A stretch of DNA of 64,000 nucleotides from contig JAJVIF010000003.1 in the NCBI GenBank assembly GCA_022072165.1, positions 310,001-374,000 of the forward strand, given 5' to 3'. The DNA comes from a bacterium (lineage in GTDB: Bacteria > JAJVIF01). The position numbers and the translations under genes are program-made. This document shows, in pieces, positions 8,764 to 64,000 of this stretch. The stretch's first letter is position 1. Each line of letters starts with the position of its first letter. A model generated the notes under the pieces. The model had not been told where the DNA came from. It searched no databases and saw nothing but the letters and a program-made list of their open reading frames with translations.

Positions 8764-8769
8764 ATTGTA
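8764..8769 (-). promoter_or_regulatory. -10 box TACAAT of a leaderless-type promoter
   Basis: TACAAT on the minus strand, 8 nt before the ATG of the membrane protein at 8755. It lies back to back with the plus-strand box at 8782. Confidence 0.6.
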
Positions 8770-8781
8770 GAGGGAGCGGGC

Positions 8782-8787
8782 GATAAT
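8782..8787 (+). promoter_or_regulatory. -10 box GATAAT of a leaderless-type promoter
   Basis: GATAAT, 7 nt before the ATG at 8795. The divergent boxes at 8764 and 8782 are only 12 bp apart. Confidence 0.5.
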
Positions 8788-8794
8788 CGGACCC

Positions 8795-9370
8795 ATGACC
8801 CCTTCGAGCTTCGACCCGGCGCGGCAGGCAGTCCTCTTCGCACCGGAGCGCCAGGTGCTCCTTCCCCGACCGGACATCCTTCGCTTCGCACAACTCACAC
8901 CAGGCATGCATGTCGCGGACCTGGGATGCGGTAATGGCTATCTGCTGCGCCCTTTGAGCGCTGCTGTCGGGACCTCAGGACAGGTGCTTGGCTCCGACCT
9001 GCAGACGGCGATGCTGGAAGGTGCCAAAGCACATGTGTGGGAGGAAGGGCTCGACAATGTGGTGCTGGCGCAGGCATCAGAGAACACGATCCCGGTTGCG
9101 GATGGGGTCTGCGACCGGGCGTTGCTTTGTCATGTCTGGCACGACCTGGCGGATCAGGCGGCGTACTTGCAGGAAGTGCGACGCATCCTGAGTCCGCAGG
9201 GCGAACTGATCATCATCAACTGGGAAGCGATCTGGACCGGGATCGGTCCCCGGGTGCACCGACGCTGGAGTCCGATGCGGACACTCACTTTTCTGGCGGA
9301 TCAGGGCTGGGAAGTCATCCGGGCCAGGAGTCTCACCTGGGCGAACTACGCCATCGCGGCGACTCCTTAA
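8795..9370 (+). CDS. Class I SAM-dependent methyltransferase (UbiE-like)
   Basis: 191 residues. Motif I is VADLGCGNGYLL near residues 40-51, motif II/III appears as QVLGSDLQTAML and AEN-like SENTIPVADGVCDRALLCHVWHD, and motif post-I as VRRILSPQGELIIINW, all as in small UbiE/methyltransf_11 proteins. The C-terminal arm is short. The substrate is not evident. Its stop codon overlaps the end of a convergent pseudogene by two bases. Confidence 0.8.
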   Translation: MTPSSFDPARQAVLFAPERQVLLPRPDILRFAQLTPGMHVADLGCGNGYLLRPLSAAVGTSGQVLGSDLQTAMLEGAKAHVWEEGLDNVVLAQASENTIPVADGVCDRALLCHVWHDLADQAAYLQEVRRILSPQGELIIINWEAIWTGIGPRVHRRWSPMRTLTFLADQGWEVIRARSLTWANYAIAATP

Positions 9371-10844: not shown

Positions 10845-10850
10845 GGACCA

Positions 10851-10856
10851 AGTGTA
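10851..10856 (-). promoter_or_regulatory. -10 box TACACT retained by the pseudogene
   Basis: TACACT on the minus strand, 6 nt before ATG 10844. Confidence 0.45.
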
Positions 10857-10884
10857 CCGGGTTTACGCAACCTGTGAGGTGGTC

Positions 10885-12162
10885 CTAACGGGCGAGCCAG
10901 CGACGGGTCGCTTCGGCGACAAAGTCTGCACCGATGGGCAGCACGGCTTCGTCGAAGTCGAAGCGGGGATGATGGTGATAGTAGGTTTCGGCCTTGCGGT
11001 ACGCACTGCCGAGAAAGACATAGCAGCCGGGGACCAGTTCCTGATAGAAAGCGTGATCTTCGCCCCCCATGCTGGGCTCTGGGTCCACGACATTGCGACG
11101 TCCGACGATATCGATTGCGACCTCCCGGCAGAAGTCCGCCATGCCGGCATCGTTCACCAGCGCCGGATTCTCCCGGTGATACGCCAGGGTGCCCCGGGCT
11201 CCGAAGCCTTTCGGGAGGTCGCGGACGAGGGCGGTCATTCGCTGCTCGACCCGGTCCTGGACTGCCCGGTCGAAGCTCCGGACGGTCCCTTCCATCGTCA
11301 CGCGCGGCGGGATCACGTTGAACGCGTTGCCCGCATGGATCTGTCCGACTGTCACGACGGCTGTCGAGAAGGGATTGATGTTGCGTCCGACAATGGACTG
11401 AAACGCCGTGACCAGCTGGGCGGCAATAACAATGGGGTCGATAGCGCGATGAGGCATCGCTGCATGGCCGCCGGTCCCCTCGATGACGATCTCGAAACGG
11501 TCGACTGCCGCCATGGCGGGGCCGGTCACGACCCCGATCTTGCCGACTGGCAGGTGCTGCCAGATGTGGTAGCCGATGGTGGCATCGACCCCTGTCAGGA
11601 TGCCGGCTTCGATCATGGCCCCGGCTCCGTTCAGGCCCTCCTCCGCCGGCTGGAAGTTGTAGCGCACCGTGCCTCTGGCAGGGGGAAGTTGTTTCAGCTG
11701 GCGGGCGGCACCGAGAAGAATCGCGACATGGGCATCGTGCCCGCACGCATGCATCACCCGGGCGTGCTGACTGGCGAACCCGTGGGCATTTTCTTCCTGA
11801 ATCGGGAGGGCATCGATGTCGCTGCGGAGCATGAGGCAGCGCCCGGCGGTCTTCGACTTCTGGTCGGCCATGACCCCGGTCCCGGCCAGCCGCTTCCCTT
11901 TCAGTCCCAGCGCGGCGAGTTCTTCCAGGATGAGCTCTTGGGTCAGATTTTCCTGAAAGCCGAGCTCCGGGAACATGTGCACGGTCCGGCGCAGCCAGGC
12001 GAGGTCTGCCTGCGTGGTGCCGCGGGGATCCGGCGTGCTGTCCGAGAAGGTTTTCGCGGCGGCGGCGCGACGTTCTGCCAGGGTGAGACGGACTTTTTCC
12101 TGGGGGGGATGTCCGGGACGATCCGCATGGGAACGGGGGAGTTCGCAGGGGGTGGCTTTCAT
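10885..12162 (-). CDS. M20 family metal-dependent amidohydrolase
   Basis: 425 residues, related to hippurate/N-acyl-amino-acid amidohydrolases (M20D), which hydrolyse N-acylated amino acids with two metal ions. Visible metal-site motifs are HACGHDAH (first His/Asp ligands), FQPAEEG (catalytic Glu pair), YHIWQHLPVG, and GGEDHAFY near the C-terminus. The dimerisation/lid domain is IEGTGGHAAMPHRAIDP. Start set at 12162 since a TACAAT box is 7 nt upstream; the open frame continues 58 codons further but overlaps the promoter and the next gene. There is a roughly 45-residue extension before the usual catalytic domain start. No signal peptide. Confidence 0.88.
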   Translation of the reverse strand: MKATPCELPRSHADRPGHPPQEKVRLTLAERRAAAAKTFSDSTPDPRGTTQADLAWLRRTVHMFPELGFQENLTQELILEELAALGLKGKRLAGTGVMADQKSKTAGRCLMLRSDIDALPIQEENAHGFASQHARVMHACGHDAHVAILLGAARQLKQLPPARGTVRYNFQPAEEGLNGAGAMIEAGILTGVDATIGYHIWQHLPVGKIGVVTGPAMAAVDRFEIVIEGTGGHAAMPHRAIDPIVIAAQLVTAFQSIVGRNINPFSTAVVTVGQIHAGNAFNVIPPRVTMEGTVRSFDRAVQDRVEQRMTALVRDLPKGFGARGTLAYHRENPALVNDAGMADFCREVAIDIVGRRNVVDPEPSMGGEDHAFYQELVPGCYVFLGSAYRKAETYYHHHPRFDFDEAVLPIGADFVAEATRRWLAR

Positions 12163-12169
12163 GTCGCTG

Positions 12170-12175
12170 ATTGTA
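12170..12175 (-). promoter_or_regulatory. -10 box TACAAT of a leaderless-type promoter
   Basis: TACAAT on the minus strand, 7 nt before ATG 12162 of the M20 amidohydrolase; this decides the start. Confidence 0.6.
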
Positions 12176-12211
12176 GTGGCGAGAGTGCGATCTGCGAGGC
12201 AGTCCGCGATC

Positions 12212-12964
12212 TCAGCGGCGCATCTGCCGCTCCAGCGCCTTGAGTTCGCGGATGAGCCCGAGGTACTGCTGGATGGTCCTGGCCACCGGGAGCTTGCTGG
12301 CCCCTTCCTTGAGGTCATAGCGAAGGACGAGTCCAACTTCGTCGATTCGGGCCTGAATCAGATGCAGCTTGATCAGAATTTCTGCCATGCAGGCAAAGCC
12401 CCGCTGGGTGACCAGCCCCGCAGGTCCGTAGGTCTCAAACGCCCGTTGCAGCGTCGCCACCCGATACGCCCGAAAGCCGCAGGTGTAGTCCCGCGCTCCG
12501 GGAATGGGGAACGCGGAACTCAGGAGCCACGATGCGCCGCGACTCAGGATCTGCCGGTGCTTCGCCAGGCCGACCTCGGCGCCACCGGGGGCATAGCGAC
12601 TGGCGATGACTACATCCGCCGTGTCGTTCGCAATCCTCGCGGTCATGGTGTCGATGAGCGTCGCCGGATGGGTGTTGTCAGCATCGAGGGCGACTACGAC
12701 ATCGTGGGGGGTCTCGACATGTGCGCTGACCCAGGCAAAGCCGGTCGCCATCGCCTGCCCCAGGCCCCGGTTGCGGTCGTGGGGCTCCACAATGACCGGC
12801 CAGTCGCGGGCCGCCTCCCGGGCGAGCGCTTGTGTGGCATCGGCTGAGCCGTCATCCACCACGAGGATGCGATAGTCGCGTCCCTGCAGGGCGGTCCCCA
12901 GGGCTGGCAGGAGTTTGGGGAGAGCTGCCGCTTCGTTGTAGGCCGGGAGGAGGCAGGTGAGCAT
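12212..12964 (-). CDS. Family 2 glycosyltransferase (polyprenyl-phosphate type)
   Basis: 250 residues of a GT-A fold. It opens with LLPAYNEAAALPKLLPAL, then RILVVDDGSADAT, NRGLGQAMATGF, and the DxD site VVALDADNTHP, the pattern of dolichol/undecaprenyl-phosphate sugar transferases. It transfers a sugar from a nucleotide donor to a lipid carrier or glycan. There are no clear membrane helices at the C-terminus, unlike DpmI/ArnC forms, so the enzyme looks soluble. TATCCT on the minus strand 9 nt before the ATG may be its -10 box. Confidence 0.85.
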   Translation of the reverse strand: MLTCLLPAYNEAAALPKLLPALGTALQGRDYRILVVDDGSADATQALAREAARDWPVIVEPHDRNRGLGQAMATGFAWVSAHVETPHDVVVALDADNTHPATLIDTMTARIANDTADVVIASRYAPGGAEVGLAKHRQILSRGASWLLSSAFPIPGARDYTCGFRAYRVATLQRAFETYGPAGLVTQRGFACMAEILIKLHLIQARIDEVGLVLRYDLKEGASKLPVARTIQQYLGLIRELKALERQMRR

Positions 12965-12973
12965 GCGGGGGGA

Positions 12974-12979
12974 AGGATA
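12974..12979 (-). promoter_or_regulatory. -10 box TATCCT, leaderless type
   Basis: TATCCT on the minus strand, 9 nt before ATG 12964. Overlaps an inverted repeat (ATACCCGC / GCGGGTAT) shared with the divergent tRNA promoter. Confidence 0.4.
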
Positions 12980-12994
12980 CCCGCATCCGGCGGG

Positions 12995-13000
12995 TATACT
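12995..13000 (+). promoter_or_regulatory. -10 box TATACT of tRNA-Pro
   Basis: TATACT 13 nt before the first base of the mature tRNA. Confidence 0.5.
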
Positions 13001-13013
13001 CCGAAGGCCGGAA

Positions 13014-13090
13014 CGGGGCGTAGCGCAGCCCGGTAGCGCGTCTGGTTTGGGACCAGAAGGCCGTCAGTTCAAGTCTGACCGCCCCGACCA
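13014..13090 (+). tRNA. tRNA-Pro (anticodon UGG)
   Basis: Cloverleaf folds by eye: acceptor arms CGGGGCG 13014-13020 and CGCCCCG 13080-13086, discriminator A, and an encoded CCA at 13088-13090. The anticodon stem TCTGG/CCAGA encloses loop TTTGGGA with anticodon TGG at 13048-13050. The T-loop is GTTCAAGTC. A terminator hairpin follows at once. Confidence 0.95.
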
Positions 13091-13097
13091 TTTTGAA

Positions 13098-13128
13098 GCA
13101 AACCCCCGCGGACATCGTGGGGGTTTGC
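13098..13128 (+). terminator. Intrinsic-type terminator after tRNA-Pro
   Basis: GCAAACCCCC (13098-13107) pairs perfectly with GGGGGTTTGC (13119-13128) across an 11-nt loop. The downstream sequence TGTGTGTTGTGTT is T-rich but interrupted by G. Confidence 0.7.
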
Positions 13129-13201
13129 TGTGTGTTGTGTTCGGCCACGCCCGAGCGCTCTTGTAAAAAAGGGGAATGTGGACATCGGTGGGAAATGTTG
13201 G

Positions 13202-13282
13202 GGGTGCGATTCATCGCGCCCTGTTCCAAACGCGCCGCGTCAGCGAAGTGCCCAGATGCACAGGCTGCGATAATTCGCAGCC
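13202..13282. repeat. Composite hairpin element A+B, copy 3
   Basis: Hairpin A (13202-13221, one G-for-C arm change) and hairpin B (13263-13282, GGCTGCGATAATTCGCAGCC), 41 bp apart, same order as at 7.6 kb. TGTTCCAAACGCGC after hairpin A is the reverse complement of the flank at copy 1. The rest of 13129-13341 has no gene that I can support. Confidence 0.85.
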
Positions 13283-13329
13283 TACATCGGTTCTCCTGCT
13301 CTCAGGCCAGCCTAGCATGAACTTCCTGA

Positions 13330-13335
13330 TACGCT
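13330..13335 (+). promoter_or_regulatory. -10 box TACGCT of a leaderless-type promoter
   Basis: TACGCT preceded by TGA, 6 nt before GTG 13342. Confidence 0.4.
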
Positions 13336-13341
13336 GATGCT

Positions 13342-15048
13342 GTGCAGTGGCTCGGCCGGGTGCTGATTATTGGCGGATTGCTGGGCGCGCTGGCAGTCGC
13401 GCTCCTGATCGCCGTGTGGATGGTGCGACCTGCACCGTCGAGCGTGCTGCTGCAGGTCCGTGGGCACTACCCCCCCGCAGATCGTGAGTTGATTCAGCTC
13501 CTCGGTGAGGGCCAGCGCGCGCTGGAAACGATTGATCCCACCGACCGTCCCGCCGTCTCACCGATAAAAAGAGCCATCTCCGCTCCATTTTTGGAACAGC
13601 AGGAAGAGCAGACCAGTGCGGCGCGGAAGGCATACCGCATTTCGCCCAGGGGCTATGAGCCCGGGACCGAACTGGAAGTCAGCACATTCAGGCATGTCGC
13701 CGATGAAGTGACGAAGCAGGGACTGGCGGCGCAGGATCTGGTACGTCTGGCTGCTGAAGCACAGACAGCGAGGCTGACCCGTGGCTATAGTGTCCCGGGT
13801 CTCGTGATCCGGGCGGCGCAGCCGAACTATCGCGCTGTGATCACGGGTCGCGAAGCCACCGCGATGCGGAACAGCGGCATCCGGGGACATTTGACTGGAG
13901 TCCCGGTCCCGACCGATGCACCGCTGGATCCCTGCTATCCGCTGGCGGTCAGTGCGGCGCTCCATCCAGAGGGACTTGGAGCGTCTCTCGCCGGAGTGAG
14001 CCAGATGCCGGGCTGGTCGCAGCAGGACCGGATCGCCACCGCCTTCAGTCTGGGGTGTCTCTTCTGGTGGTCCCGGGAGCCCGATCCGGAGCGCCTGTTC
14101 GCCATGCTGGAGCAGGATGCAGCGGGCGACCCGCTGTTGCGCCTGGCAGCGCTCTCAGGCGTCGTGCAGGGACTCAACAACTTCCTGATGGCCGATGACC
14201 CGCTGGAGAAGGAAGAGATCATCGCGTTTAACCGGACCTGGGCGAACACGATCGAGTCACCCTGGGTGGATGACGCCGCCACTGCGTGGATGCAGGGACC
14301 GAAAGATGTCGAGTCGTTTGTGCTGCTGGGACGGTGTCCGGCGTATCAGGGCTATGTCGAGCGGATTCCTGCCTGGGTAGCGAGCAGTGAACCAGGGGAG
14401 CAATTGCTGGCTACTTCGTTTATGGCTCAGCCAGGCTATGTCGGCTTCCTGGCCTTTGCGCATCGCGCCAGCTGGGAGGAGATCGTTGCCGGTGCACCTT
14501 ATGCCGATCGCGAGTTCAACCGGCTGCTGTTCCTCGCCTATGCCGATGAAGTGATGCGGATGGAGGAGGCGGGACCGGCCGCCTGGCCGACCATGGTCCG
14601 GACCGGCCTGCAGGCGGAGCGGATCGACAGCCGGGTGCTAAGTCGGGTCCTGGGATCCCGTGCCGCTGGAACGTGGCAGACAGTCTGGCCCGCGCTGAAG
14701 TCAGCCATTCTGCAGCTGGAGTCGACCTCGCCAGGGAGTTCCCTCCAACAGACGTGGCCCTTTTTGCCGGTCCTGACCATTCCGGTCTGTCCGGTCCCGG
14801 GGGGACGGGGAACCGAAGACCCGGCGTTCCTCGATGCGGTCGATGGCGCGCTGCACGACTCCTGGAACTCCGGGAACGCCGCATTGCAGGCCGCGATTGT
14901 CGAATGGCATCTGCCGCGTATGCTGGAACACGGTGCGGGGCTGGCACGCTGGCAGAGTCGGCGCGATGTCCTGCGTCCCTGGCTGGCAGGAATGCAGGAT
15001 CGGGAGCAGGCGTCGATGGTCCTGGCAGCGCTGGATGCGGCTCCCTGA
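13342..15048 (+). CDS. Membrane-anchored protein of unknown function
   Basis: 568 residues starting at GTG. Residues 5-27 (GRVLIIGGLLGALAVALLIA) form one N-terminal membrane anchor; the remainder should lie outside the membrane. It is largely helical and Ala/Leu-rich, without metal or nucleotide motifs I can identify. The end of this gene and the start of the histidine kinase gene are 33 nt apart, so they may form a pair, with this protein a candidate sensor partner; that is inference from position only. Confidence 0.65.
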   Translation: MQWLGRVLIIGGLLGALAVALLIAVWMVRPAPSSVLLQVRGHYPPADRELIQLLGEGQRALETIDPTDRPAVSPIKRAISAPFLEQQEEQTSAARKAYRISPRGYEPGTELEVSTFRHVADEVTKQGLAAQDLVRLAAEAQTARLTRGYSVPGLVIRAAQPNYRAVITGREATAMRNSGIRGHLTGVPVPTDAPLDPCYPLAVSAALHPEGLGASLAGVSQMPGWSQQDRIATAFSLGCLFWWSREPDPERLFAMLEQDAAGDPLLRLAALSGVVQGLNNFLMADDPLEKEEIIAFNRTWANTIESPWVDDAATAWMQGPKDVESFVLLGRCPAYQGYVERIPAWVASSEPGEQLLATSFMAQPGYVGFLAFAHRASWEEIVAGAPYADREFNRLLFLAYADEVMRMEEAGPAAWPTMVRTGLQAERIDSRVLSRVLGSRAAGTWQTVWPALKSAILQLESTSPGSSLQQTWPFLPVLTIPVCPVPGGRGTEDPAFLDAVDGALHDSWNSGNAALQAAIVEWHLPRMLEHGAGLARWQSRRDVLRPWLAGMQDREQASMVLAALDAAP

Positions 15049-52170: not shown

Positions 52171-52902
52171 CTAAATGCTGGTGCCCCCGGACTGGGCGAC
52201 AGCCCCGTCTTTCAGGAACGCCTTCTCAAAGGCCTTGATCAGGTGGGCCTCGCCGCCGAAGCCTTCGAGCCGTTCCACCAGACGTCCCTCGCGATCCACA
52301 AAGAGGGTGAGCGGAATGCTCATTGCCTTGAAATCTTTCGCGACTTTCATGGCAGTGTCGTGGGCGACCGGGTAGGTGATCTTGCGCTGCTCCACCATTT
52401 TGGTGACCGCGGCGGCGGCTTTCGGGTCGTCCAGGGAGATGGCGATGAATTCGACTTCTTTGCCGTACTGGTCATAGAGCTTCTGGATGACCGGGATTTC
52501 ATGGAGGCAGGGACCGCACCAGGTCGCCCAGAGAGTGATGCTGACCGGTTTGGTCCCGTAGAGGACCGTCGAATCGAGGGTGCGTCCATCGAGGGTGGTG
52601 ACGACAAAGTCGGGGGCGCGACCCTCTTCCTTCGTCACCGACTTCGATGTCGAGGCGGGGACATCGGCCTGGATCCATTCCCCCTCATCGGCGGAGGCTT
52701 CCTGTCCGGCGGCATCGGTGGCTGGTTCAGTCGCGGACTCCGACGCCTCGGATGGGGGAGGAGCCGGTTCCGGATCGGCAGGGGCCTGAGCGGGGCCTGC
52801 AGCATCGCGCGATGCGGGCGTGGGGGTGTCGGCCTCCTGGGACTGGGGAGTCGCGGAGCAGCCGAGGATGAAACAGAGCGGGAGGCACAGCAGGGTGCGC
52901 AT
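52171..52902 (-). CDS. TlpA-like thioredoxin lipoprotein
   Basis: 243 residues. The lipobox is CFILGC near residues 10-15, followed by a Pro/Ala/Glu-rich linker of about 60 residues, then a thioredoxin-fold domain (FVVTTLDGRTLD, WATWCGPCLHEIP). WCGPC is the redox-active pair; SIPLTLFVDREGRL gives the cis-Pro. This is the ResA/TlpA type, which reduces periplasmic disulfides, for example during cytochrome c assembly. The next gene encodes a paralogue. Confidence 0.9.
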   Translation of the reverse strand: MRTLLCLPLCFILGCSATPQSQEADTPTPASRDAAGPAQAPADPEPAPPPSEASESATEPATDAAGQEASADEGEWIQADVPASTSKSVTKEEGRAPDFVVTTLDGRTLDSTVLYGTKPVSITLWATWCGPCLHEIPVIQKLYDQYGKEVEFIAISLDDPKAAAAVTKMVEQRKITYPVAHDTAMKVAKDFKAMSIPLTLFVDREGRLVERLEGFGGEAHLIKAFEKAFLKDGAVAQSGGTSI

Positions 52903-53006
52903 GGGAGCAGGACCTCAGCGATGGAGTCGTCGTCAGAAGCGAACCGGGTGCAGCAGGGCCGCACCCGGTAAGCGTACAGTCTATTGGTGTCTGGGGGGAT
53001 GTCCGA

Positions 53007-53537
53007 TCAGGATTGCAGACTCTTGACGAAGCTCCGGAGGTTTTCTTCGCTGGTGAGTCCGACCTTGGTGTGGCCATTGCCCTTGAGGTCGACGCCATAA
53101 ATCATCGGGATGGCGGTGATTTTGAAGCGCTGGGAGAGGGAGCGGTCGGTATCGATGGCGACTGTGTAGTCGATGCCATGTTTGGTCATCGCGCCCCGGA
53201 CCAGCTTGTCGAGTTCTTCCGGTGTTTTGGCGGTGTCGACACTGACACCGATGAACTGCACCTTGTCGCCGAACTCCTTGGCGAGCGTCTTAATGGCGGG
53301 GATCTCTTTCAGGCAGGGACCGCACCAGGTCGCCCAATAGACCAGCACGACGGGCTTTTTGCCATAGAGCTCCAGGCTGGAGAGCTCCACCGGTTCCTCA
53401 TCGAGGGTGGTGACCACGAATCCCAGGGCATCCCCTTTGGTGGGATTGCTGTCTTTGGCGGGGGCTTCGGCCAGGGCTGCTCCGGGGAGGAGCAACGCCA
53501 GGATCAGCAGGGGAAGGAGCAAGAGGGGTCGGAACAT
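53007..53537 (-). CDS. TlpA-like periplasmic thioredoxin
   Basis: 176 residues with a cleavable signal peptide (LLLLPLLILALLLPGAALA). The domain is closely related to its neighbour at 52171 (FVVTTLDEEPVELS, YWATWCGPCLKEIPAIK), with cis-Pro in ITAIPMIYGVD. Likely a tandem duplication in which one copy is soluble and the other is membrane-tethered. A c-type cytochrome operon begins 1.6 kb away, so a role in haem-thiol reduction is plausible. Confidence 0.9.
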   Translation of the reverse strand: MFRPLLLLPLLILALLLPGAALAEAPAKDSNPTKGDALGFVVTTLDEEPVELSSLELYGKKPVVLVYWATWCGPCLKEIPAIKTLAKEFGDKVQFIGVSVDTAKTPEELDKLVRGAMTKHGIDYTVAIDTDRSLSQRFKITAIPMIYGVDLKGNGHTKVGLTSEENLRSFVKSLQS

Positions 53538-55093: not shown

Positions 55094-56476
55094 ATGCCGA
55101 AGGTCAAGCAGCTCTCGGTCGCGATGTACTTCTGGGGGGCCCTCATTTTCCTCCCACTGGGCGTGACCTACGGGCTGTTCAGCGCGACGCACTTCATCAT
55201 GCCCACCTGGGTGGAAGGGATTCCGCAGCTTTCCTTCGGGCGGATGCGGCCGGTCCATATTCACCTGGTGGCCTTCGGCTGGCTGAGCATGGCGTATGTG
55301 GGTGCCATGTACTACATGATCCCGAAGATGTGTAAGACGCCCCTCTGGTCGGAGACGCTGGGGCGCTGGACCGCAGTGGCGCACTTTGGCTGGGTCTGGG
55401 CGGCGGTGATCTGCCTGTCGAATGGGATTACCGAAGCCCGGGAATACGCCGAAGCTCCCTGGTTCCTCGACATTATTTTCCTCCTCTATCTGGTGGCGGT
55501 GGCGGTCAATCTGTTCATGACCATCGCCAACCGGACCCAGAAAAAGCTCTATGTCAGCATCTGGTACTTCACCGGGACGCTGATCTGGTTCCCCTGCGTG
55601 TACATCCTCGGGAACCGGGTGTTTATGCGCCTCGATGGCCTGAACGACGCCATCGCGAACTGGTTCTACGGGCACAACATTCTCGGGCTCTGGTTCACGA
55701 CGGTGGGTGTCGGGATCACCTACTACCTGATGCCGCTCCTGGTGCGCCGTCCGATTTACTCCCACAAGCTGAGCATGATCGGCTTCTGGGCCATCGCGCT
55801 CTTCTATGCGCCGACCGGGACCCACCACATCCTGCAGTCGCCGGTCCCCTACTGGCTGAAGTCCCTGGCGGTCGTGAGCTCCATCGGGCTGCTCGTGCCA
55901 GTGCTGACAGTCCTCTTCAACTTCTTCCTGACCCTCGACAAGAAGTGGCCGCAGGCCTATGCGAACTACACCCTCCGCTTTTTGATTTCGGGGTGTGTGT
56001 TCTACCTGATCACCTGCGTACAGGGTCCGTTCCAGGCGACCCGGTGGGTGAACTGGTACATCCACTTCACGCAGTGGGTGGTGGCGCACGCGCACCTGGC
56101 GCTGCTGGGGACTTTCACCAACATGTCGATCGCGGCGATCTACTACATCGTGCCGCGTATCACCGGCCGGCCCATTTTCAGCCGTCCGGCGATGGCCTGG
56201 CACTGGTGGCTCACGCAGTTCGGCTTCACGCAGTTCTTCGTGGCGCTGACCATCGCCGGTCTGGTGCAGGCGGCAGGGTGGCGCTACGGCTACCCGATCG
56301 TGCAGTGGGTCCAGGCGATGTATCCGGAGCAGGTGGTCCGCTGGCTCGGCGGCATCATGATCGTGGTGGGGCAGTACATCTTCGCCTGGAACATTTACCG
56401 GACCTTCTTCACGCCAGTGGAGGTCGAGGAAGATTCTGACGCGCCGGTCGCAACCCCTGCGACGCAGGCCGCGTAG
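55094..56476 (+). CDS. ccoN: cbb3-type cytochrome c oxidase catalytic subunit
   Basis: 460 residues, haem-copper oxidase subunit I of the cbb3 class with 12 membrane helices. Haem and Cu ligands are visible: RPVHIHLVAFGWLSMAY (low-spin haem), NWFYGHNILGLWFT (CuB His), GTHHILQSPVP (CuB pair), and WVVAHAHLALLG (haem b3 and low-spin haem). It reduces O2 to water at low oxygen. First gene of a co-directional run to the right edge, under the CRP-type operator. Confidence 0.95.
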   Translation: MPKVKQLSVAMYFWGALIFLPLGVTYGLFSATHFIMPTWVEGIPQLSFGRMRPVHIHLVAFGWLSMAYVGAMYYMIPKMCKTPLWSETLGRWTAVAHFGWVWAAVICLSNGITEAREYAEAPWFLDIIFLLYLVAVAVNLFMTIANRTQKKLYVSIWYFTGTLIWFPCVYILGNRVFMRLDGLNDAIANWFYGHNILGLWFTTVGVGITYYLMPLLVRRPIYSHKLSMIGFWAIALFYAPTGTHHILQSPVPYWLKSLAVVSSIGLLVPVLTVLFNFFLTLDKKWPQAYANYTLRFLISGCVFYLITCVQGPFQATRWVNWYIHFTQWVVAHAHLALLGTFTNMSIAAIYYIVPRITGRPIFSRPAMAWHWWLTQFGFTQFFVALTIAGLVQAAGWRYGYPIVQWVQAMYPEQVVRWLGGIMIVVGQYIFAWNIYRTFFTPVEVEEDSDAPVATPATQAA

Positions 56477-56491: not shown

Positions 56492-57673
56492 ATGCAGGTC
56501 CGGCAAAAAGACTACGCCTTCCTGGTGGCCTTCGTTTCCGCCACGTTCCTCAGCATCGTCTTTATGACGGTGATCCTGCCGAACATGGTGTTCCAGCCGC
56601 AGCCTTCGGACTATGTGGAAGCGCTGACGGTCCAGGAGCTCCGGGGGCGGGAGGTCTACAAGAAAGAAGGGTGCTGGTACTGCCATACGCAGTTTGTCCG
56701 GCCCCAGGACCGCAATGAAGGACCGGTGGCCCTCTCCGGGGACTTCGAGTTCAAGGAAGAGACGGTCCAGCTTGCCAAAGAGCACGGCTATCAGCTCGTG
56801 CATCTGCTCGGCACGGAGCGGACCGGTCCGGACCTGAGCCTTATCGGCGGCAAGATGCCCGATGCCTGGCACAAGGCGCATCACGCCAATCCGCAGGCCT
56901 TCAATCCCGGGTCGATCATGCCGAAGTACAACTACCTCTCCGAGCAGGAGATGGACGACCTGGTGGCGTATCTGCAGACCCTGGGTCGGAAGAAGAACGC
57001 CCTTTCCCGGCAGGCGCATGAGACATTCCGGGGGAACTTCAATGCGGCGTATCAGACAACTACCGAGGGGGGCGTCTCCCTGGGCTATCTGATCGAGCCG
57101 GAAGTTCCCTGGGAGTTCAAGCAGTTCTACGAGAAGAAGTACAAGAACCAGAACCCCATCAAGTACGAGAACCGGTACATCGCCGGGGCCCGGGGGATCT
57201 ACAACAACAAGTGCGCCCACTGTCATGGTGTCCAGGGGGACGGCAACGGTCCCCGGGCCCTGTCACTGACCGAACGTCCGGCAAACTTCCAGTCCAATGA
57301 CCCGAACATGGGTTACGACGAGTGGTCGGACATCAAGTGGTACTGGAAGATCGCTGAGGGGGCCGGCCCCGGCGCGGTGATGCCGCGCTGGAATGGAGTC
57401 CTGCATCCCGACCAGATCTGGTACCTGGTGATCTACTGCCGCTACCTGGCGGCGGACCGGACGCTGCCGCTGCCCCCCCGCGATGAGCCGTTGCGGGCAC
57501 CGGAGCTGGGTGGTCGGACCTTCCATTACGAAGGGGATGACCTGGTGGTGAGCTATCCCGAGCCTCCGCCCGGGATGCCCCAGTCTGATCCGGCCCTGGA
57601 CCCCGGGCTCACCCTGCAGGTCGATGAAGAGCTGGCGGAGACCGGGCAGCCGGTCGGTGCCGCAGGTAACTGA
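56492..57673 (+). CDS. ccoO: Two-haem CcoO-like subunit (CcoO with an added cytochrome c domain)
   Basis: 393 residues. An N-terminal anchor (YAFLVAFVSATFLSIVFM) leads to the CcoO domain with CWYCHTQFVRPQDR (haem c) and RTGPDLSLIGGK then SIMPKYNYL (Met ligand). A second cytochrome c domain from about residue 210 has NNKCAHCHGVQGDG and GAVMPRWNG. Normal CcoO is about 200-240 residues with one haem; the extra domain takes the place of CcoP, which is missing here. C-terminal tail is Pro/acidic-rich. GGAGG before the ATG. Confidence 0.92.
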   Translation: MQVRQKDYAFLVAFVSATFLSIVFMTVILPNMVFQPQPSDYVEALTVQELRGREVYKKEGCWYCHTQFVRPQDRNEGPVALSGDFEFKEETVQLAKEHGYQLVHLLGTERTGPDLSLIGGKMPDAWHKAHHANPQAFNPGSIMPKYNYLSEQEMDDLVAYLQTLGRKKNALSRQAHETFRGNFNAAYQTTTEGGVSLGYLIEPEVPWEFKQFYEKKYKNQNPIKYENRYIAGARGIYNNKCAHCHGVQGDGNGPRALSLTERPANFQSNDPNMGYDEWSDIKWYWKIAEGAGPGAVMPRWNGVLHPDQIWYLVIYCRYLAADRTLPLPPRDEPLRAPELGGRTFHYEGDDLVVSYPEPPPGMPQSDPALDPGLTLQVDEELAETGQPVGAAGN

Positions 57674-57716: not shown

Positions 57717-57893
57717 ATGCTGACCCACAATCTCTACAGCGCGCACTACCTGGTGATCTTTCTGTCACTGGCTTTCGGAGCCATCGCCATCGGAGCCGCC
57801 CTCTGGAGCATCCGGCATGGCCACTTCCAGTACATGGAAGGGGTTAAGTACTCCATCTTTGATCCGGATGACGACGAGTCGCTGACCGACTAG
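57717..57893 (+). CDS. ccoS: CcoS-like small membrane protein (first)
   Basis: 58 residues: one membrane helix (LVIFLSLAFGAIAIGAALWS), then HGHFQYMEGVKYSIFDPDDDE. This matches the CcoS plan (helix, 'sGqfddle.p..rIL.DD'). CcoS is needed for cofactor insertion into CcoN. GAGGAGGA lies 9 nt before the ATG. Confidence 0.75.
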   Translation: MLTHNLYSAHYLVIFLSLAFGAIAIGAALWSIRHGHFQYMEGVKYSIFDPDDDESLTD

Positions 57894-57923: not shown

Positions 57924-58115
57924 ATGGGCTGTCCCAACTGTGCAGCAAAACTGGCAGAGCTGGGACCGGGCTGGTGGGCCGCTTTTTTCATCGTGGGGCT
58001 GTTCGGGATGCTGGCGGGCTTCATGCTCCTGGCGAACCGGAATGGCCTCGGAGGCCGGGACGAGGATCATCTGGAAGTGAAGTACGCCATTCTCGACTGC
58101 GAGGATGACGACTAG
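57924..58115 (+). CDS. CcoS-like small membrane protein (second), with N-terminal CPNC
   Basis: 63 residues. One membrane helix (AAFFIVGLFGMLAGFMLLA) and a tail VKYAILDCEDDD almost the same as VKYSIFDPDDDE in the previous gene, so the two are paralogues. The N-terminus has CPNC, a possible metal or thiol site absent from the first copy. GAAGGGAGGGG upstream. Confidence 0.7.
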   Translation: MGCPNCAAKLAELGPGWWAAFFIVGLFGMLAGFMLLANRNGLGGRDEDHLEVKYAILDCEDDD

Positions 58116-58153: not shown

Positions 58154-58333
58154 ATGTCGGAAGAAGGCACATCCGTAGAGGCCACCAAGGCGGTGGAGTA
58201 CGGTGAGTACGAAGTCGACGCGGATGTCGGGAATGTCCCGGCGCTGCTGATCTGGATCTTTGTCGGCGTCCTGCTGTGGGGAATCTTCTCGTGGGTTCCG
58301 TTCTTCGGCGGGGTGGAAGGCAGTCAGTGGTAG
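58154..58333 (+). CDS. Small single-pass oxidase accessory protein
   Basis: 59 residues: acidic N-terminus (EEGTSVEATKAVEYGEYEVD), then one helix (VPALLIWIFVGVLLWGIF) and a short tail. Resembles CcoQ or the N-terminal anchor of CcoP in size and position, without any haem motif. AAAGGAG upstream. Function inferred from place in the operon. Confidence 0.65.
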   Translation: MSEEGTSVEATKAVEYGEYEVDADVGNVPALLIWIFVGVLLWGIFSWVPFFGGVEGSQW

Positions 58334-58364: not shown

Positions 58365-59345
58365 ATGAGCGCAAGTCGTCATGGGCAACTGACAGGGGTG
58401 CGGGTCCTGAGCGGGCTCGGGCTGTCGCTGACCCTGCTGCTGGGGGCTGCCTGTGGGGCAGCACCAACCGGAGGACGGGCGGTGAATGCGACGCTGGTGA
58501 CCGGCACTGAGCTCGCCCATCATTCGCCGGAGCGGCCGAGTCGGTACCTCGGCAAGTTCATCTATCAGCAGAACTGCTCGGGCTGCCATGGTCAGGTGGG
58601 GCCCATGCCCCCGTATAACCTCGATGTGCCGGGCAAGCGGCTCAGCACCGAGCGGATTGAGATGCTCGATGCGCAAAAAGCTGCCCGCATGGAGATCCGC
58701 AAGTCGGAACCGGACCCCTTCTATCCGCCGGTCCAGGGCCCCTATGAAGACATGTACGACTTCCGCTGGTTTGCCAATGGCGGCGAGTTCAGCCGCTACG
58801 CGAACGGCGCCAAGTCCCCCCTGTCGGACTATACCTACCACCAGATTTTCGAGATGCTCTCCCATGGCGAGCATGGTGATGCGAATCAGAAGTACAACTA
58901 CAAGGACCGGCTCTCCGACCGTGAACGGTGGGCAGTGGTCTACTACATCGCCAACATGGGGCTCGATAACGGCCAGGCGGACTGGCAGGAAGCCTGGGAT
59001 CAGCAGGTCGCTCTGCGGAAGACGATCTATGGCACCCATTGCTCCATCTGTCACGGGGCCGTGGGTCGTGGGGATGGTCCCGAAGGGCACAAACTGGTGC
59101 CCAAGCCGATGAACTTCACTTACCTCGACTGGTCCGCCGGTGTGAAGGCGGGCTACCCGGTGACCGACGAATATCTGTACGAAATCATCGCGAACGGCAA
59201 GATTCATCCGGGTTCCATCGAGGGGACGCCGGGGAATCCGGAGCCCCGGTGGACCGGGATGCCGTTCTGGAAAGACACCCTGCGCGAAGAAGACATGTGG
59301 GGTCTCGTGGAATTCATCCGCAGCCTGAGCTACGTGCAGGACTAA
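58365..59345 (+). CDS. Dihaem cytochrome c lipoprotein
   Basis: 326 residues. Lipobox LLGAAC puts the acylated Cys at residue 30. Haem sites are NCSGCHG (Cys71, Cys74, His75) and HCSICHG near residue 228, each followed by a C-terminal Met-type segment (GMPFWKDTLREEDMW for the second). It is a candidate membrane-tethered electron carrier between the Rieske/cytochrome b module downstream and the oxidase upstream. Family as in CcoP-like or photosynthetic-type two-domain cytochromes. Confidence 0.9.
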   Translation: MSASRHGQLTGVRVLSGLGLSLTLLLGAACGAAPTGGRAVNATLVTGTELAHHSPERPSRYLGKFIYQQNCSGCHGQVGPMPPYNLDVPGKRLSTERIEMLDAQKAARMEIRKSEPDPFYPPVQGPYEDMYDFRWFANGGEFSRYANGAKSPLSDYTYHQIFEMLSHGEHGDANQKYNYKDRLSDRERWAVVYYIANMGLDNGQADWQEAWDQQVALRKTIYGTHCSICHGAVGRGDGPEGHKLVPKPMNFTYLDWSAGVKAGYPVTDEYLYEIIANGKIHPGSIEGTPGNPEPRWTGMPFWKDTLREEDMWGLVEFIRSLSYVQD

Positions 59346-59360: not shown

Positions 59361-60023
59361 ATGGAGAAAAGTCTGAGCCGACGCAACTTCATGGCCGCCT
59401 GGCTGGGGGCGCTGCCGGGCTTCGGCCTGCTGGCGTACCTCATCCCGGTCTGGTGGCGCTTTTTGTTCCCCACCATGGAGCCATACGGCTTCTTCTCCGA
59501 ACAGGTGCTGGGGACCGAAAAGGAACAGTACGTTGAGAACGTCTCGAACATGAAGAATCCCTGGGACTTCCGGCCCTTCGAGTTTGTCCGGCAGGCCCGC
59601 CTCTTCACTTCCGACGGGATCTACAACACCCGGGTGCCCGGGTTCCTGGTGGCGATTCCGAAAGACCCTTCCAATCCGAAGGCAGGCGAAGTGGAATACC
59701 GGGCGTTCTCCCGTATCTGTGTCCACCTTGGCTGCGTGTTTGACTACGTGGTGGGCCGGGATGCCATCAAGACCGGCTTCAATTACGCCGTGCCGCTGAA
59801 CGAGGTCCACTTCGGGTGCCCGTGTCACCTCTCGGTGTATGACCTGTCGCAGCTGATCCCGATTCCAGGCGTGTCCATCAGTCCGGAAGACAAAGACTGG
59901 ATGCTGGGACCCAAAGTGGTCTCGGGCCCTGCGCCGCGTCCGGCCCGCCCCTTCAAGGTGAGGGTGGATGAGCAGAGTGGGGACATCTTTATCGTGCAAC
60001 TCGAAGGCGGAGGCCTGAGCTAA
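59361..60023 (+). CDS. Rieske [2Fe-2S] protein
   Basis: 220 residues. SLSRRNFMAAWLGAL at the N-terminus is a twin-arginine-type anchor. The Rieske ligands are CVHLGC and CPCHLS; the disulfide Cys of the classic motif (C-T-H-L-G-C ... C-P-C-H-G-S) are also present, with Ser after the second His instead of Gly-Ser. The insertion between the two boxes is long (about 35 residues). It passes electrons from quinol to cytochrome c. Its stop overlaps the cytochrome b start (TAATGG). Confidence 0.92.
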   Translation: MEKSLSRRNFMAAWLGALPGFGLLAYLIPVWWRFLFPTMEPYGFFSEQVLGTEKEQYVENVSNMKNPWDFRPFEFVRQARLFTSDGIYNTRVPGFLVAIPKDPSNPKAGEVEYRAFSRICVHLGCVFDYVVGRDAIKTGFNYAVPLNEVHFGCPCHLSVYDLSQLIPIPGVSISPEDKDWMLGPKVVSGPAPRPARPFKVRVDEQSGDIFIVQLEGGGLS

Positions 60024-61249
60024 TGGCGACCAACGCCGCGCTCATCAAAGGCGCACCGGACATCCTGCAGCAGGCCCAGGCCTGGTTGTCGGAGCGGCTG
60101 GCCGTAATGGATCTCTTCGATGAGACCTTTACGGACCGGGCGAAAACGAACCCCTGGTATGCCATCGGCGGGATGTTCTATCTCTCCTGGGTGATCGTGC
60201 TGGTCACCGGCTTCTGGCTCTGGATGTGGTACACGCCGACCATCGAGCAGGGATATGCCAGCATCGAGCGGATCCAGCATGAGATCCCCTACGGCTGGCT
60301 GTTCCGGGCGGTCCACAAGTACGCCGGGGACGCCATGATCATCCTGGCGACCATGCGGGCCTATCGCTTTGTCTTCACAGGGGACTACAAGAAGCCCTAC
60401 GAGATCGTCTACTTCATTTCGATCTTCGCCATCATTCTCTGTATGTACTCGGGGCTCACCGGGTATCTGCTGATCTGGAATCAGCGGGCCTTCTGGGCCA
60501 CGAAGGTGATGGTGACGTTCCCGACCTACATCGACTACACCCCTGGGCTGGGCTTCCAGTACTTCGGCCGCAACACCGCGTTCTGGTGGCTGGGGGGCGG
60601 GTCCATTGGTCAGGGGACGATGACGAACTTCCTGACGGCGCACTATGCGCTGTCAATCATTGCGTTCCTGCTGATCGAGCAGTACTTCTGGAAGACCAAG
60701 CACCGCCGGATCAATCTCTCCGTGCCGCAGATGATCACGACCTTCGCGATCATCGTGGGCGTCGTCTTCATGCGCCCGTCAGAAATGGGCACGTTCGCCA
60801 ATCCGACCGTGACCCCGAACCCGATTCTGTCGGACTGGTACTTCCTGGCGCTCTACCAGCTGATGAAATATCAGCATCCGGTGACGGCGACCTGGGTGAC
60901 GGTGGCGATTCCGGCGGTGGCGATTCTCTGTGCCTTCCTGGATGTCCGGCCGGAGCGTTCCCTCTGGCAACGTCCGGGGATGGCAGTCTGCTCGATCGCC
61001 GCGCTGCTGCAGTTCATCGCACTGAGCGTCCTGATCATTCTCAACATCGCGGACATTCAGCGGGACCCCCCGTTCTGGTATCTGAGCCTGATGCTGCCGG
61101 GGGTCCTGGCCGGCTGGCTCGAGTGGCAGCACTTTAAGAAGACGAAAGTTCCGAAGGGTCTCTGGGCGCTGCCGGTCTTCGCCAATCAGGTGATGAAGCG
61201 TCCGGAAGCCCCACCACAGACCCGTCCGCAGGCCACTCCGGCGGAGTAG
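60023..61249 (+). CDS. Cytochrome b lacking the haem bH ligands
   Basis: 408 residues, about 8-9 membrane helices, cytochrome b/b6 plus subunit-IV-like half. The helix B/D ligand His are His98 and His207 (haem bL pair). The second pair, expected 14 residues on, is Arg112 (ATMRAYRF) and Tyr221 (IEQYFW), so haem bH is not obviously bound. The Qo motif is LSDWYFLALYQLMKY at 269-283 (SDWY in place of PEWY). The protein overlaps the Rieske gene and is followed by two small membrane genes and a second cytochrome b. Confidence 0.85.
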   Translation: MATNAALIKGAPDILQQAQAWLSERLAVMDLFDETFTDRAKTNPWYAIGGMFYLSWVIVLVTGFWLWMWYTPTIEQGYASIERIQHEIPYGWLFRAVHKYAGDAMIILATMRAYRFVFTGDYKKPYEIVYFISIFAIILCMYSGLTGYLLIWNQRAFWATKVMVTFPTYIDYTPGLGFQYFGRNTAFWWLGGGSIGQGTMTNFLTAHYALSIIAFLLIEQYFWKTKHRRINLSVPQMITTFAIIVGVVFMRPSEMGTFANPTVTPNPILSDWYFLALYQLMKYQHPVTATWVTVAIPAVAILCAFLDVRPERSLWQRPGMAVCSIAALLQFIALSVLIILNIADIQRDPPFWYLSLMLPGVLAGWLEWQHFKKTKVPKGLWALPVFANQVMKRPEAPPQTRPQATPAE

Positions 61250-61300
61250 TCTGGCTGGTCTGATGCCGGAGCGAATCCGGCAGAGAGGAGCCCCGGCACC

Positions 61301-61585
61301 ATGTTCTGGTGGATGCTGGTGGCGATCGCGGCAGGGGCGCTGATGCTGCTGCTGCAGTGTGTGGGAGTCCTGACCGGCACACGGGAAGGGACTCCTGGGC
61401 CGGAGCATGTGCTGGGCCTCATCCTGAGCGTCGCTGGTCTGGCTACGACGATGCCTGTGATCGTCTTTCTGGACTACAAGTCGCAAAAAAAGAAGGGGAA
61501 AGTGGTCCGCCAGATTCCCCTGTTCGAAAAGGCGCTCACCATCGCTGATCAGCAGCGTCGGGAGCCGGAAGCGAAGGAGCCGTAA
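61301..61585 (+). CDS. Small two-helix membrane protein of the respiratory operon
   Basis: 94 residues with two membrane helices (MLVAIAAGALMLLLQCVGVL and HVLGLILSVAGLATTMPVIV) and a basic, then acidic C-terminal tail (KSQKKKGK). No cofactor motif. GAGAGGAG upstream; last base of its stop overlaps the next ATG. Likely an accessory subunit of the complex, by position. Confidence 0.65.
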   Translation: MFWWMLVAIAAGALMLLLQCVGVLTGTREGTPGPEHVLGLILSVAGLATTMPVIVFLDYKSQKKKGKVVRQIPLFEKALTIADQQRREPEAKEP

Positions 61586-61941
61586 TGGCCGGGCACGAAC
61601 CGCCGAAGCTGAATACCGGAACCGCACTGAACCTCGTGGTGTCAGCGTGGTCGCTCACCTGGGCTGGCCTGGGTGGAGTCGTGGTGCTGCTGATCCTCTG
61701 GCTGGAGACGTTTTACGTCACCTTCGACAAGGAAGCCCAGCAGTACCTGCATAGCGTGACGCTCCCCTTCGCTGTGCCCGGATTTGGCCGGGCGGTGCTG
61801 TCGACAGTGGAGTTCCAGCAGGTGACGCTGATCCTGTTCGGGTTCGCGCTGATCTGCACCGGTCTGGCGATCATGCCGCTGTACCAGAAGGATGAGCCGG
61901 CGGCCGCGCTGGCTCCTGAGAGTGACGCCAGCGGCGCATAG
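61585..61941 (+). CDS. Small two-helix membrane protein of the respiratory operon
   Basis: 118 residues with helices LGGVVVLLILWLETFYV and VTLILFGFALICTGLAIM. No cofactor motif or known family. Start overlaps the previous stop (TAATGG), which suggests coupled synthesis. Likely an accessory subunit. Confidence 0.65.
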   Translation: MAGHEPPKLNTGTALNLVVSAWSLTWAGLGGVVVLLILWLETFYVTFDKEAQQYLHSVTLPFAVPGFGRAVLSTVEFQQVTLILFGFALICTGLAIMPLYQKDEPAAALAPESDASGA

Positions 61942-61968
61942 CGTTGCTGCCCAGAGAGAGGACTGACG

Positions 61969-63231
61969 ATGGCGACATCGATCCAGGAAGTCATCACGAA
62001 GCCCCAGATCCAGCAGACCTATGTTGAGGTCTTCTGGCGGGCTGTGCTCTGGATGGAAGACAAGGTCAACCGGGCGTTCAACAACCGGCTGAATCCCTTT
62101 TACTACCACGGAGCGCTCCCGAACTTCTTCCTCTTTACGCTGTTTGCGACGGGCATCTTCCTGATGTTCCACTACATCCCCACCCGGCCCCGGGCGTATA
62201 CGGAAATCGAGTTCATGACGAACTCGGTGCCGTTCGGGGTCTGGATGCGGGGGGTCCATCGCTACGCGGCTGACGGGATGATGATCGTGGTGCTGGTGCA
62301 CATGTTCCGGGTCTGGTTCACCGACCGGTACCGGGGCTCCCGCATCCTCCCCTGGCTCACCGGCGTCGGGCTCCTCTGGATGCTGTATATCGTCGGCATC
62401 ACCGGGTACATGCTGATCTGGGATGGCCGGGCACAGATCGTGACCGCCATGACCCTGGATATGTTCTCTACGGTGCCGTTGATCGGCGGCTGGCTGCAGG
62501 ACTTCCTGCGGGGCGGCGAGGCTATCACCGACAACACGCTGGGTCGTTACTTTTCGATCCACATCATGTTCGCGGTGGGGATCTTCTTCTTCCTGGTGCT
62601 GCATTACATCCGGTTGTACAAACCGAAGACTTCGACCCCCATGCCCCTCTGGATGGTGTTCCTGGGGATCACGTTCATCATCGCCGGGGCGGTGCCGGTG
62701 ACGGCAGATCTGCCGACCCCGCTGATATTCCCGGGGACTGGTGACAACGTGGCCGGGTATTCCCGGAGCATGGGCATCAGCTACGACGAGGCCGTGAGCA
62801 TGGCGGCGCAGGCTGCCGGCGCGGAGCTCGCGGCTGGTGACGCCTCCTGGACCATCGACTGGCTGTACATGTGGCCCTATGGTCTGTACTACTCCATCGG
62901 ACCGGGAGCCTTCTGGCTCTTCATGGCCCTGATTACGGTGCTCTTCTTTGTGCCGTACTTCGTGAAGACGCACCGGCCTTTTGCCTACGTCATCGAGGAA
63001 GCCTGTGTCGGCTGCCAGCTCTGCTACCTCGACTGCCCCTTCAACGCCATCGAAATGATCGAGAAGCCGAGCCTCAAGAAGGGGCGCAAACCGAAACTGC
63101 TGGCGATCGTGTACGAAGCGCGCTGCACCTCCTGTGGAGTCTGCGTCGGTTCCTGCGCGTATGAGGCGATCGAGATCCCGCGAGTCCGCTCGCAGGAGAT
63201 CGAGGCCGCGGTCGCGGCGCTGTGCAGCTAG
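61969..63231 (+). CDS. Cytochrome b fused to a 2x[4Fe-4S] ferredoxin domain
   Basis: 420 residues. The first 340 are a cytochrome b with both ligand pairs intact: His97/His111 (VHRYAADGMMIVVLVH) and His198/His212 (IHIMFAVGIFFFLVLH). A helix-rich C-terminal part has IDWLYMWPYG in the place of a PEWY-type motif. Residues 346-356 and 386-396 are CxxCxxCxxxC clusters (CVGCQLCYLDCP; CTSCGVCVGSCA), on the cytoplasmic side by topology. It would carry electrons from the quinone pool to a soluble iron-sulfur partner, or the reverse. Confidence 0.87.
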   Translation: MATSIQEVITKPQIQQTYVEVFWRAVLWMEDKVNRAFNNRLNPFYYHGALPNFFLFTLFATGIFLMFHYIPTRPRAYTEIEFMTNSVPFGVWMRGVHRYAADGMMIVVLVHMFRVWFTDRYRGSRILPWLTGVGLLWMLYIVGITGYMLIWDGRAQIVTAMTLDMFSTVPLIGGWLQDFLRGGEAITDNTLGRYFSIHIMFAVGIFFFLVLHYIRLYKPKTSTPMPLWMVFLGITFIIAGAVPVTADLPTPLIFPGTGDNVAGYSRSMGISYDEAVSMAAQAAGAELAAGDASWTIDWLYMWPYGLYYSIGPGAFWLFMALITVLFFVPYFVKTHRPFAYVIEEACVGCQLCYLDCPFNAIEMIEKPSLKKGRKPKLLAIVYEARCTSCGVCVGSCAYEAIEIPRVRSQEIEAAVAALCS

Positions 63232-63259
63232 ACTGGAAAGCCGTCAGAGAGGACCTGCC

Positions 63260-63760
63260 GTGAGCGAGACTGCCACCGCTGTCGGAGCCCCAGAGAAAGT
63301 CCGGATCATCGGCTTTGTCTGCGAACGGGCGTACGACCTGGAGAAAATCCTGAACGCCGACGGGACCCTGAAAGCGGATCCTGATGTCCGGCTCATCGCC
63401 CTGCCCTGCAGTGGCATGGTGCAGCCGGGGTTCATCGAAAAGGCGCTGGAGGCAGGCGCGCAGGGCGCTTTCGTTATGGGCTGCCTCCTTGGCGACTGCT
63501 ACTTTCGGGACGGGAACTACGTCATCAAAGAGCGGATCGAACGGACCCGGCGGCCGCAGATCAAGCGCAAGTACAACCTCGAGCAGATCGGGACCATCTG
63601 GTTCTCCCGGGCCATGATGGAAGAAGAACTCTACGGTCTCATCGCCAGTTTCAAGGACCGGGCGCTTTCCTTCTGTAAGGAGCATCCGGAGAAGATGCCA
63701 GCGGCTATCGCCGCGCACGAGGCGGAGCTCCGCCGGTCCCGCGCTGCCGCCCGGAAGTAA
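63260..63760 (+). CDS. MvhD/HdrD-like iron-sulfur subunit
   Basis: 166 residues from GTG 63260. Family match: FVCERAYDL near 19-27, LPCSGMVQPGFIEKALEAGA at 48-67, VMGCLLGDCYF at 72-82, GNYVIKERIERTR. Cys21, Cys50, Cys75 and Cys80 remain; the usual second Cys of the first pair (CxxC) is Arg-Ala and the usual His after GDC is Tyr. In archaea MvhD links hydrogenase to heterodisulfide reductase through a [2Fe-2S] centre. Placed right after the ferredoxin-cytochrome b, it probably takes its electrons. Confidence 0.82.
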   Translation: MSETATAVGAPEKVRIIGFVCERAYDLEKILNADGTLKADPDVRLIALPCSGMVQPGFIEKALEAGAQGAFVMGCLLGDCYFRDGNYVIKERIERTRRPQIKRKYNLEQIGTIWFSRAMMEEELYGLIASFKDRALSFCKEHPEKMPAAIAAHEAELRRSRAAARK

Positions 63761-63810
63761 CGACCGGACGTTCCGTTCGTATCGCAGTCTCATCGCTGGA
63801 GGGCCCGCTG

Positions 63811-63951
63811 ATGGCCAAGCCTGACATCCCGAAGCCGCCGGTCGATCCCCGCGAAGTCACCGCGGTCGATATCCGGTATGTGGCGTACTTCGCCTTCTTC
63901 GCCTTTATTCTCTACATCATCGCCAGCTTCGGCCTCATCGCCGAGGTCTAA
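63811..63951 (+). CDS. Small single-pass membrane protein of the respiratory operon
   Basis: 46 residues: Pro-rich cytosolic N-terminus (AKPDIPKPPVDPREVTAVD) and one helix (YVAYFAFFAFILYIIASFGL). GGAGGG lies 12 nt before the ATG. Probably an accessory subunit by position. Confidence 0.6.
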   Translation: MAKPDIPKPPVDPREVTAVDIRYVAYFAFFAFILYIIASFGLIAEV

Positions 63952-63972: not shown

Positions 63973-64000
63973 ATGGAACCGGTCCAGTACGGCTATCTTT
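63973..64000 (+). CDS. Next gene of the operon, first nine codons only
   Basis: ATG 63973 opens a frame (MEPVQYGYL) that runs off the right edge. It is 21 nt after the previous stop in the same direction. Nothing can be said about its product. Confidence 0.4.

Follow-up and report, generated by a model that had tools for sequence, protein, structure and literature searches.

A Rieske/cytochrome b operon with a cbb3-type oxidase, in which the chain of b haems may be split over two proteins

The window analysed here is a stretch of 64,000 nucleotides (contig JAJVIF010000003.1, positions 310,001 to 374,000) from a bacterial genome of 3.26 Mb in 4 contigs that is 99.1% complete. Towards its 3′ end lies an operon in which the genes of a cbb3-type oxidase are followed by those of a Rieske protein, two cytochromes b and a protein related to MvhD. 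An earlier interpretation of the letters alone, which we call the sequence-only reading, had recognized a cbb3 operon here; this is real, although its extent is larger than had been supposed. Scans for open reading frames (ORFs) and protein families place about 14 genes in the block, from 55094, where CcoN is the first gene of the operon, to ~64116, past the window end. A strong hairpin with a 9-bp stem follows. The principal genes are these:

55094 to 56476, + strand: CcoN-like haem-copper oxidase subunit I, 460 amino acids (PF00115, E = 1.8e-83)
56492 to 57673, + strand: CcoO fused to a second cytochrome c domain (FixO PF02433 and Cytochrome_CBB3), with two CxxCH haem motifs
58365 to 59345, + strand: dihaem cytochrome c (PF13442), with two CxxCH haem motifs, at residues 71 and 226
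59361 to 60023, + strand: Rieske [2Fe-2S] protein, with C120, H122, C125, C153, C155 and H156 invariant (n = 29)
60023 to 61249, + strand: cytochrome b no. 1, the putative Qo half, with ligands for haem bL only (PF00033 and PF00032)
61969 to 63231, + strand: cytochrome b no. 2, with ligands for both b haems and a C-terminal 2x[4Fe-4S] ferredoxin (four His, eight cluster Cys)
63260 to 63760, + strand: MvhD/FlpD-like [2Fe-2S] protein, likely start GTG 63260 (PF02662, E = 2e-20)

The CcoN-like subunit scores 259 bits against the ccoN model, which is under the equivalog cut-off, and is therefore a divergent member of the C type. It has a Tyr six residues ahead of the HH pair, which we take to be the position of the cross-linked Tyr of the C family. 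With this Tyr, the match to COX1, and a CcoO that matches FixO, the oxidase is of the cbb3 type.

Two different cytochromes b

Relatives were collected by an alignment-based scan, from which 80 loci from named genomes were retained; a scan with the window's cytochrome b-ferredoxin as a single protein returned none. The Rieske protein matches its Pfam family weakly (E = 0.0026, under the cut-off), with the motif C-x-H-x-G-C ... C-P-C-H intact, and the cluster ligands and disulphide pair expected of a bc-type complex are present in all 29 sequences compared. Its stop codon is overlapped by one base by the start of cytochrome b no. 1.

Cytochrome b no. 1 retains the haem bL ligands H98 and H207, each His in 38/38 sequences, together with the Qo motif SDWYF (38/38) and the cd1 motif WNQ..(F/L)WA.K (38/38, one having Tyr for F/L). 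In alignments with PDB structures, read by hand, Arg112 lies at the position of the second helix-B His of cytochrome b6, and Tyr221 at that of the second helix-D His. Position 112 is Arg in 33 and Lys in 5 of the 38 sequences, and position 221 is Tyr, Arg or Phe, and never His. Both bH ligands are thus lost in 38/38, and the Rieske partner does not have the four His ligands of a bc-type cytochrome b. As far as sequence can tell, cytochrome b no. 1 is able to bind haem bL and is without the normal ligands of bH, and the loss of this haem, which the sequence-only reading did not notice, is the most informative feature of the block. It is specific to the block, since the helix-B motif is clear in 54 cytochrome b rows, with His in 47 and Arg in 7, and all seven of the latter are block members. 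The sequences without bH ligands form a single clade with support of 100/99. The AlphaFold (AF2) model of cytochrome b no. 1 has a mean predicted local distance difference test (pLDDT) score of 81 and matches a bc1-type cytochrome b. Misalignment as the source of the apparent ligand loss is contradicted by the PDB alignments, by the 38 relatives and by control cytochromes b.

It might be supposed that cytochrome b no. 1 holds a second haem with unusual ligands, and is an ordinary bc-type protomer. Glu219 is invariant (38/38), and there is an aromatic or Arg residue in the same region. Yet the two ligand positions are occupied by Arg or Lys and by Tyr, Arg or Phe, and we know of no b haem with such a pair of axial ligands. 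We consider this explanation very improbable.

Cytochrome b no. 2 has H97, H111, H198 and H212 in 46/46 sequences, and all eight cluster Cys of its ferredoxin domain are invariant in relatives. The Qo-lining cd1 motif is lost, and one Asp of the Qo motif remains in 44/46. The cd1 position of the engineered mutation G158W, which blocks Qo (PMC4330944), assigned by hand from the alignment, is Ala in 38/38 sequences of no. 1 and a bulky aliphatic residue, Leu, Ile, Val or Met, in 46/46 of no. 2. The AlphaFold model of no. 2 has a mean pLDDT of 81 and matches bc-type cytochromes b. Foldseek TM-scores of the two models are moderate (~0.6 and ~0.45), and the models contain no haem. Where the sequence-only reading spoke of a split cytochrome b it was right that there are two b genes, but the better description is of two distinct cytochromes b. 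Two further Rieske/cytochrome b pairs are found in the window's genome, at C1:528983-529962 (L049) and C1:773845-774626 (L048), and the L049 cytochrome b has the normal helix-B His ligands.

The MvhD-like protein matches the solved MvhD 5odc with E = 1.4e-14, and its four Cys are present in 42/42 relatives with a separate MvhD. The pair of ferredoxin and MvhD resembles the C-terminal part of HdrA2 (NCBIfam). As in HdrA2 and the MvhD of MvhAGD-HdrABC, 2x[4Fe-4S] is followed by an MvhD domain; here, however, they are joined to a cytochrome b and not to the HdrA flavoprotein, and HdrB and hydrogenase are lacking from the genome. The link to Hdr or hydrogenase that the sequence-only reading had drawn is not borne out. 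Within the 99.1%-complete genome there were no matches to CCG/HdrB or NiFe hydrogenase, while positive controls worked, and the family search gave a single FlpD and no second one. No Hdr or hydrogenase genes lie beside the 3′ end of the operon.

Loci with separate and with fused MvhD

The 80 loci divide into two non-overlapping kinds, 41 with separate genes for the cytochrome b-ferredoxin and MvhD, and 39 in which these are fused. The Rieske gene and the first cytochrome b lie just upstream in 37/41 of the separate loci, and the remaining four are mostly on short or cut contigs. The pattern that would have spoken against the sequence-only reading, relatives that never have MvhD near a Rieske gene, is not what is observed. 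CcoO, Rieske, cytochrome b, cytochrome b-ferredoxin and MvhD are found together in that order in 31 of the 80 independently retrieved loci, all with separate MvhD, a recurrence far beyond chance, and every gene of the Rieske, cytochrome b, cytochrome b-ferredoxin and MvhD block originally described beside the cbb3 oxidase is confirmed. The distances of cytochrome b no. 1, cytochrome b no. 2 and the Rieske protein correlate with r of 0.95-0.97, a figure that includes shared ancestry.

The loci with separate MvhD come from metagenome-assembled genomes labelled Vampirovibrionales, Obscuribacterales and other Melainabacteria (Vampirovibrionia), Holophagaceae and other Acidobacteria, Fimbriimonadaceae and Armatimonadetes, and one Bacillota. 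The operon is common to several unrelated bacterial phyla. A survey of 385 genomes across the domain, among them three others of the host's class and none closer, found the cytochrome b without bH ligands in 6, with the cytochrome b-ferredoxin gene adjacent in 6/6. The genes make up a single conserved unit together with those of the cbb3-type oxidase, and this unit has the look of a Rieske complex that oxidises quinol, with ferredoxin and MvhD as an arm on the cytoplasmic side. In this the sequence-only reading is supported. A combination of complexes III and IV in Melainabacteria, with petB/petC-like genes beside a C-type oxidase, is described in the relevant passages of PMC6349859, and many of the present loci are from the same group; those passages mention no second cytochrome b-ferredoxin, MvhD or haem loss.

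The 39 fused loci encode cytochrome b, ferredoxin and MvhD as a single polypeptide of ~500-750 amino acids. A Rieske gene is present in 0/39 and a SCO gene in 27/39. The module can therefore work alone, as it would if the operon encoded two complexes linked only by the quinone pool, one a quinol oxidase of Rieske protein and cytochrome b no. 1, the other a donor:quinone reductase of cytochrome b-ferredoxin and MvhD. Such an arrangement would offer no route for the second electron beyond bL of no. 1. It is at odds with the strict co-occurrence in 6/6 genomes and 37/41 loci, and with the retention of small subunits between the two cytochrome b genes, and we regard it as unlikely.

The oxidase encoded beside the fused gene lacks the C-family Tyr, from which we infer that it resembles a nitric oxide (NO) reductase. 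The Nitrosomonas sNOR operon, norSY-senC-orf1 (PMC3764937), shares with the fused loci a COX2-like protein, a haem-copper oxidase without the Tyr, and SCO. An operon of the sNOR type is the likely setting of the fused homologues, and by analogy Nitrosomonas orf1 would be the fused protein itself. The window's block is different. sNOR is without a Rieske protein and without a cytochrome b that has lost bH, while the window's CcoN has the Tyr and a Rieske gene is present; only the fused homologues elsewhere fit the sNOR type.

Seven loci from Nitrospirota, Nitrospinota and Deltaproteobacteria (L119, L120, L123 (e.g. 2933-8459), L125, L137, L146 and L148) have a NuoF gene beside or between the cytochrome b-ferredoxin-MvhD genes, with 4-base overlaps in several, and with NO-reductase-like oxidase genes present. 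Four of these NuoF proteins were checked, and have flavin mononucleotide (FMN), SLBB and 4Fe-4S domains. It is possible that the fused loci with NuoF encode an NADH-linked NO reductase, and the arrangement suggests that in this family electrons run from NADH through FMN and Fe-S to the b haems. A widespread cytochrome b-ferredoxin-MvhD module is thereby identified. It is accompanied by NuoF in some loci, and is probably the electron supply of haem-copper NO reductases. A search of plasmids gave a sole full-length homologue, in Defluviimonas, which belongs to the fused branch without Rieske. On this plasmid (NZ_CP156080.1, L034) positions 7972-13575 encode a COX2-like protein, the oxidase, cyoE, SCO and the cytochrome b-ferredoxin-MvhD protein, and the oxidase is annotated as cbb3-type yet is without the C-family Tyr.

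Possible electron routes

The block shares with bc1/b6f complexes (complex III) a Rieske protein, a cytochrome b fold with bL ligands and Qo motif, and cytochrome c. It differs in having two non-identical cytochromes b, a Rieske partner without bH, and ferredoxin and MvhD subunits. Ordinary bc-type complexes pass the second quinol electron from bL to bH inside one subunit. This path is absent from the Qo-bearing subunit of the block and present in the other, so that a heterodimer with transfer between the two bL haems is the simplest working arrangement. Gene order, the loss and retention of ligands, the loss of the Qo motif in no. 2, the cluster ligands and the co-occurrence of the genes can all be read directly from the sequences. 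On these we base the proposal, which we judge to be evenly balanced, that this is a Rieske/cytochrome b complex wired to the cbb3-type oxidase, with its chain of b haems split over two proteins.

Cytochrome b no. 1 and the Rieske protein would form the quinol-oxidising (Qo) half. One electron from quinol would pass through the Rieske protein and cytochrome c to the oxidase, and the other to haem bL of no. 1. With no bH ligands in this subunit, that electron would have to cross the heterodimer interface to haem bL of no. 2, and from there would reach the bH of no. 2 on the cytoplasmic side, where quinone would be reduced. The no. 2 half would also be fed by a cytoplasmic donor, via the [2Fe-2S] of MvhD and the 2x[4Fe-4S] of the ferredoxin, the donor probably being an NADH-oxidising flavoprotein of the NuoF type. 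If true, a Rieske complex would here be connected to the cytoplasm directly, by an electron-carrying arm. The proposal in its fullest form, in which an obligate natural heterodimer makes a bL-bL transfer at each turnover and its MvhD/ferredoxin arm is fed by NADH, thus joining NADH oxidation and complexes III and IV, is tentative, and we place it somewhat short of even.

The same heterodimer could instead use the arm as an exit, as the sequence-only reading had it, with the low-potential electron of Qo bifurcation passing via bL, bL′ and bH′ to ferredoxin, then MvhD and finally a soluble acceptor. The anatomy is compatible with this, MvhD is part of bifurcating Hdr systems, and the placing of the ferredoxin and MvhD on HdrA2 is in its favour. 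However, the membrane potential opposes the transfer of electrons from P side to N side, and a low-potential exit is therefore energetically unlikely. Moreover, the window's genome lacks Hdr and hydrogenase, and the homologues lie beside NuoF and NO-reductase-like oxidases that consume electrons. The presence of NuoF and of such oxidases near the fused homologues favours entry of electrons over a low-potential exit, and we think it doubtful that the arm is an exit.

Some observations weigh against the heterodimer with an NADH-fed arm. Cytochrome b no. 2 may bind quinol, given its conserved Qo-region Asp, and the two cytochromes b might assemble as separate homodimers. The flanks of the Rieske-type loci yielded no NuoF gene, so that the proposed donor rests on analogy with the fused homologues. 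Lastly, in two genomes of the same class, 92% and 82% complete (G001 and G003; L035 1-6512 and L036), the block has both cytochrome b genes, the second with its ferredoxin, as well as cytochrome c and MvhD, but no Rieske gene was detected; gene loss or a missed gene is possible. MvhD of this Rieske-less version has a long acidic N-terminal extension. In L035 the reading frame of CcoN is broken, which may be an assembly error.

The window's genome has two NuoF genes, located elsewhere than the block. It also encodes a fused NuoE-NuoF-like protein of 634 amino acids outside complex I, at C1:671121-671633 (L170 6474-8378), which might act with MvhD as a soluble partner or belong to some other dehydrogenase.

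Electron crossing between bL haems in catalysis by dimeric bc1 has been called 'a still controversial issue' (PMC4330944). In the engineered bc1 heterodimers B-B and BS-B of that study, H212N (bH) in one half and G158W (Qo) in the other isolate the bL-bL route. The block is similar in that one half is without a functional bH and the other has a blocked Qo, so that the bL-bL bridge alone would connect them. The engineered dimers are man-made from near-identical subunits, whereas the block has two diverged genes, carried by many wild lineages, whose products would have to heterodimerise. Demonstrations of such a crossing are so far confined to engineered complexes. The genomes of many wild lineages seem to encode the cross-inactivated form, and the bL-bL question could be tested in a natural enzyme. 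In an open-access literature search, with subscription papers outside its scope, neither the loss of bH nor a ferredoxin/MvhD arm on a Rieske complex was found described.

Small subunits and flanking genes

The remaining genes of the operon encode small proteins with one or two transmembrane (TM) segments:

57717 to 57893, + strand: small single-TM protein
57924 to 58115, + strand: small single-TM protein, with positional equivalents in relatives
58154 to 58333, + strand: small single-TM protein, with positional equivalents in relatives
61301 to 61585, + strand: 2-TM small subunit 1, with a positional equivalent in relatives
61585 to 61941, + strand: 2-TM small subunit 2, with a positional equivalent in relatives
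63811 to 63951, + strand: small single-TM protein with the C-terminal end ..ASFGLIAEV, matched in relatives by a similar protein in this position
63973 to 64000 (ends ~64116), + strand: single-TM ORF of 47 amino acids, only the start of which is in the window

In every relative that was inspected, small proteins occupy the equivalent positions between the cytochrome b genes and at the 3′ end of the block. Genes 3′ of the operon appear unrelated to it. Just upstream, on the - strand at 52171-53537 of the window, are two thioredoxin-like genes, of the TlpA/ResA type by their WCGPC motif.

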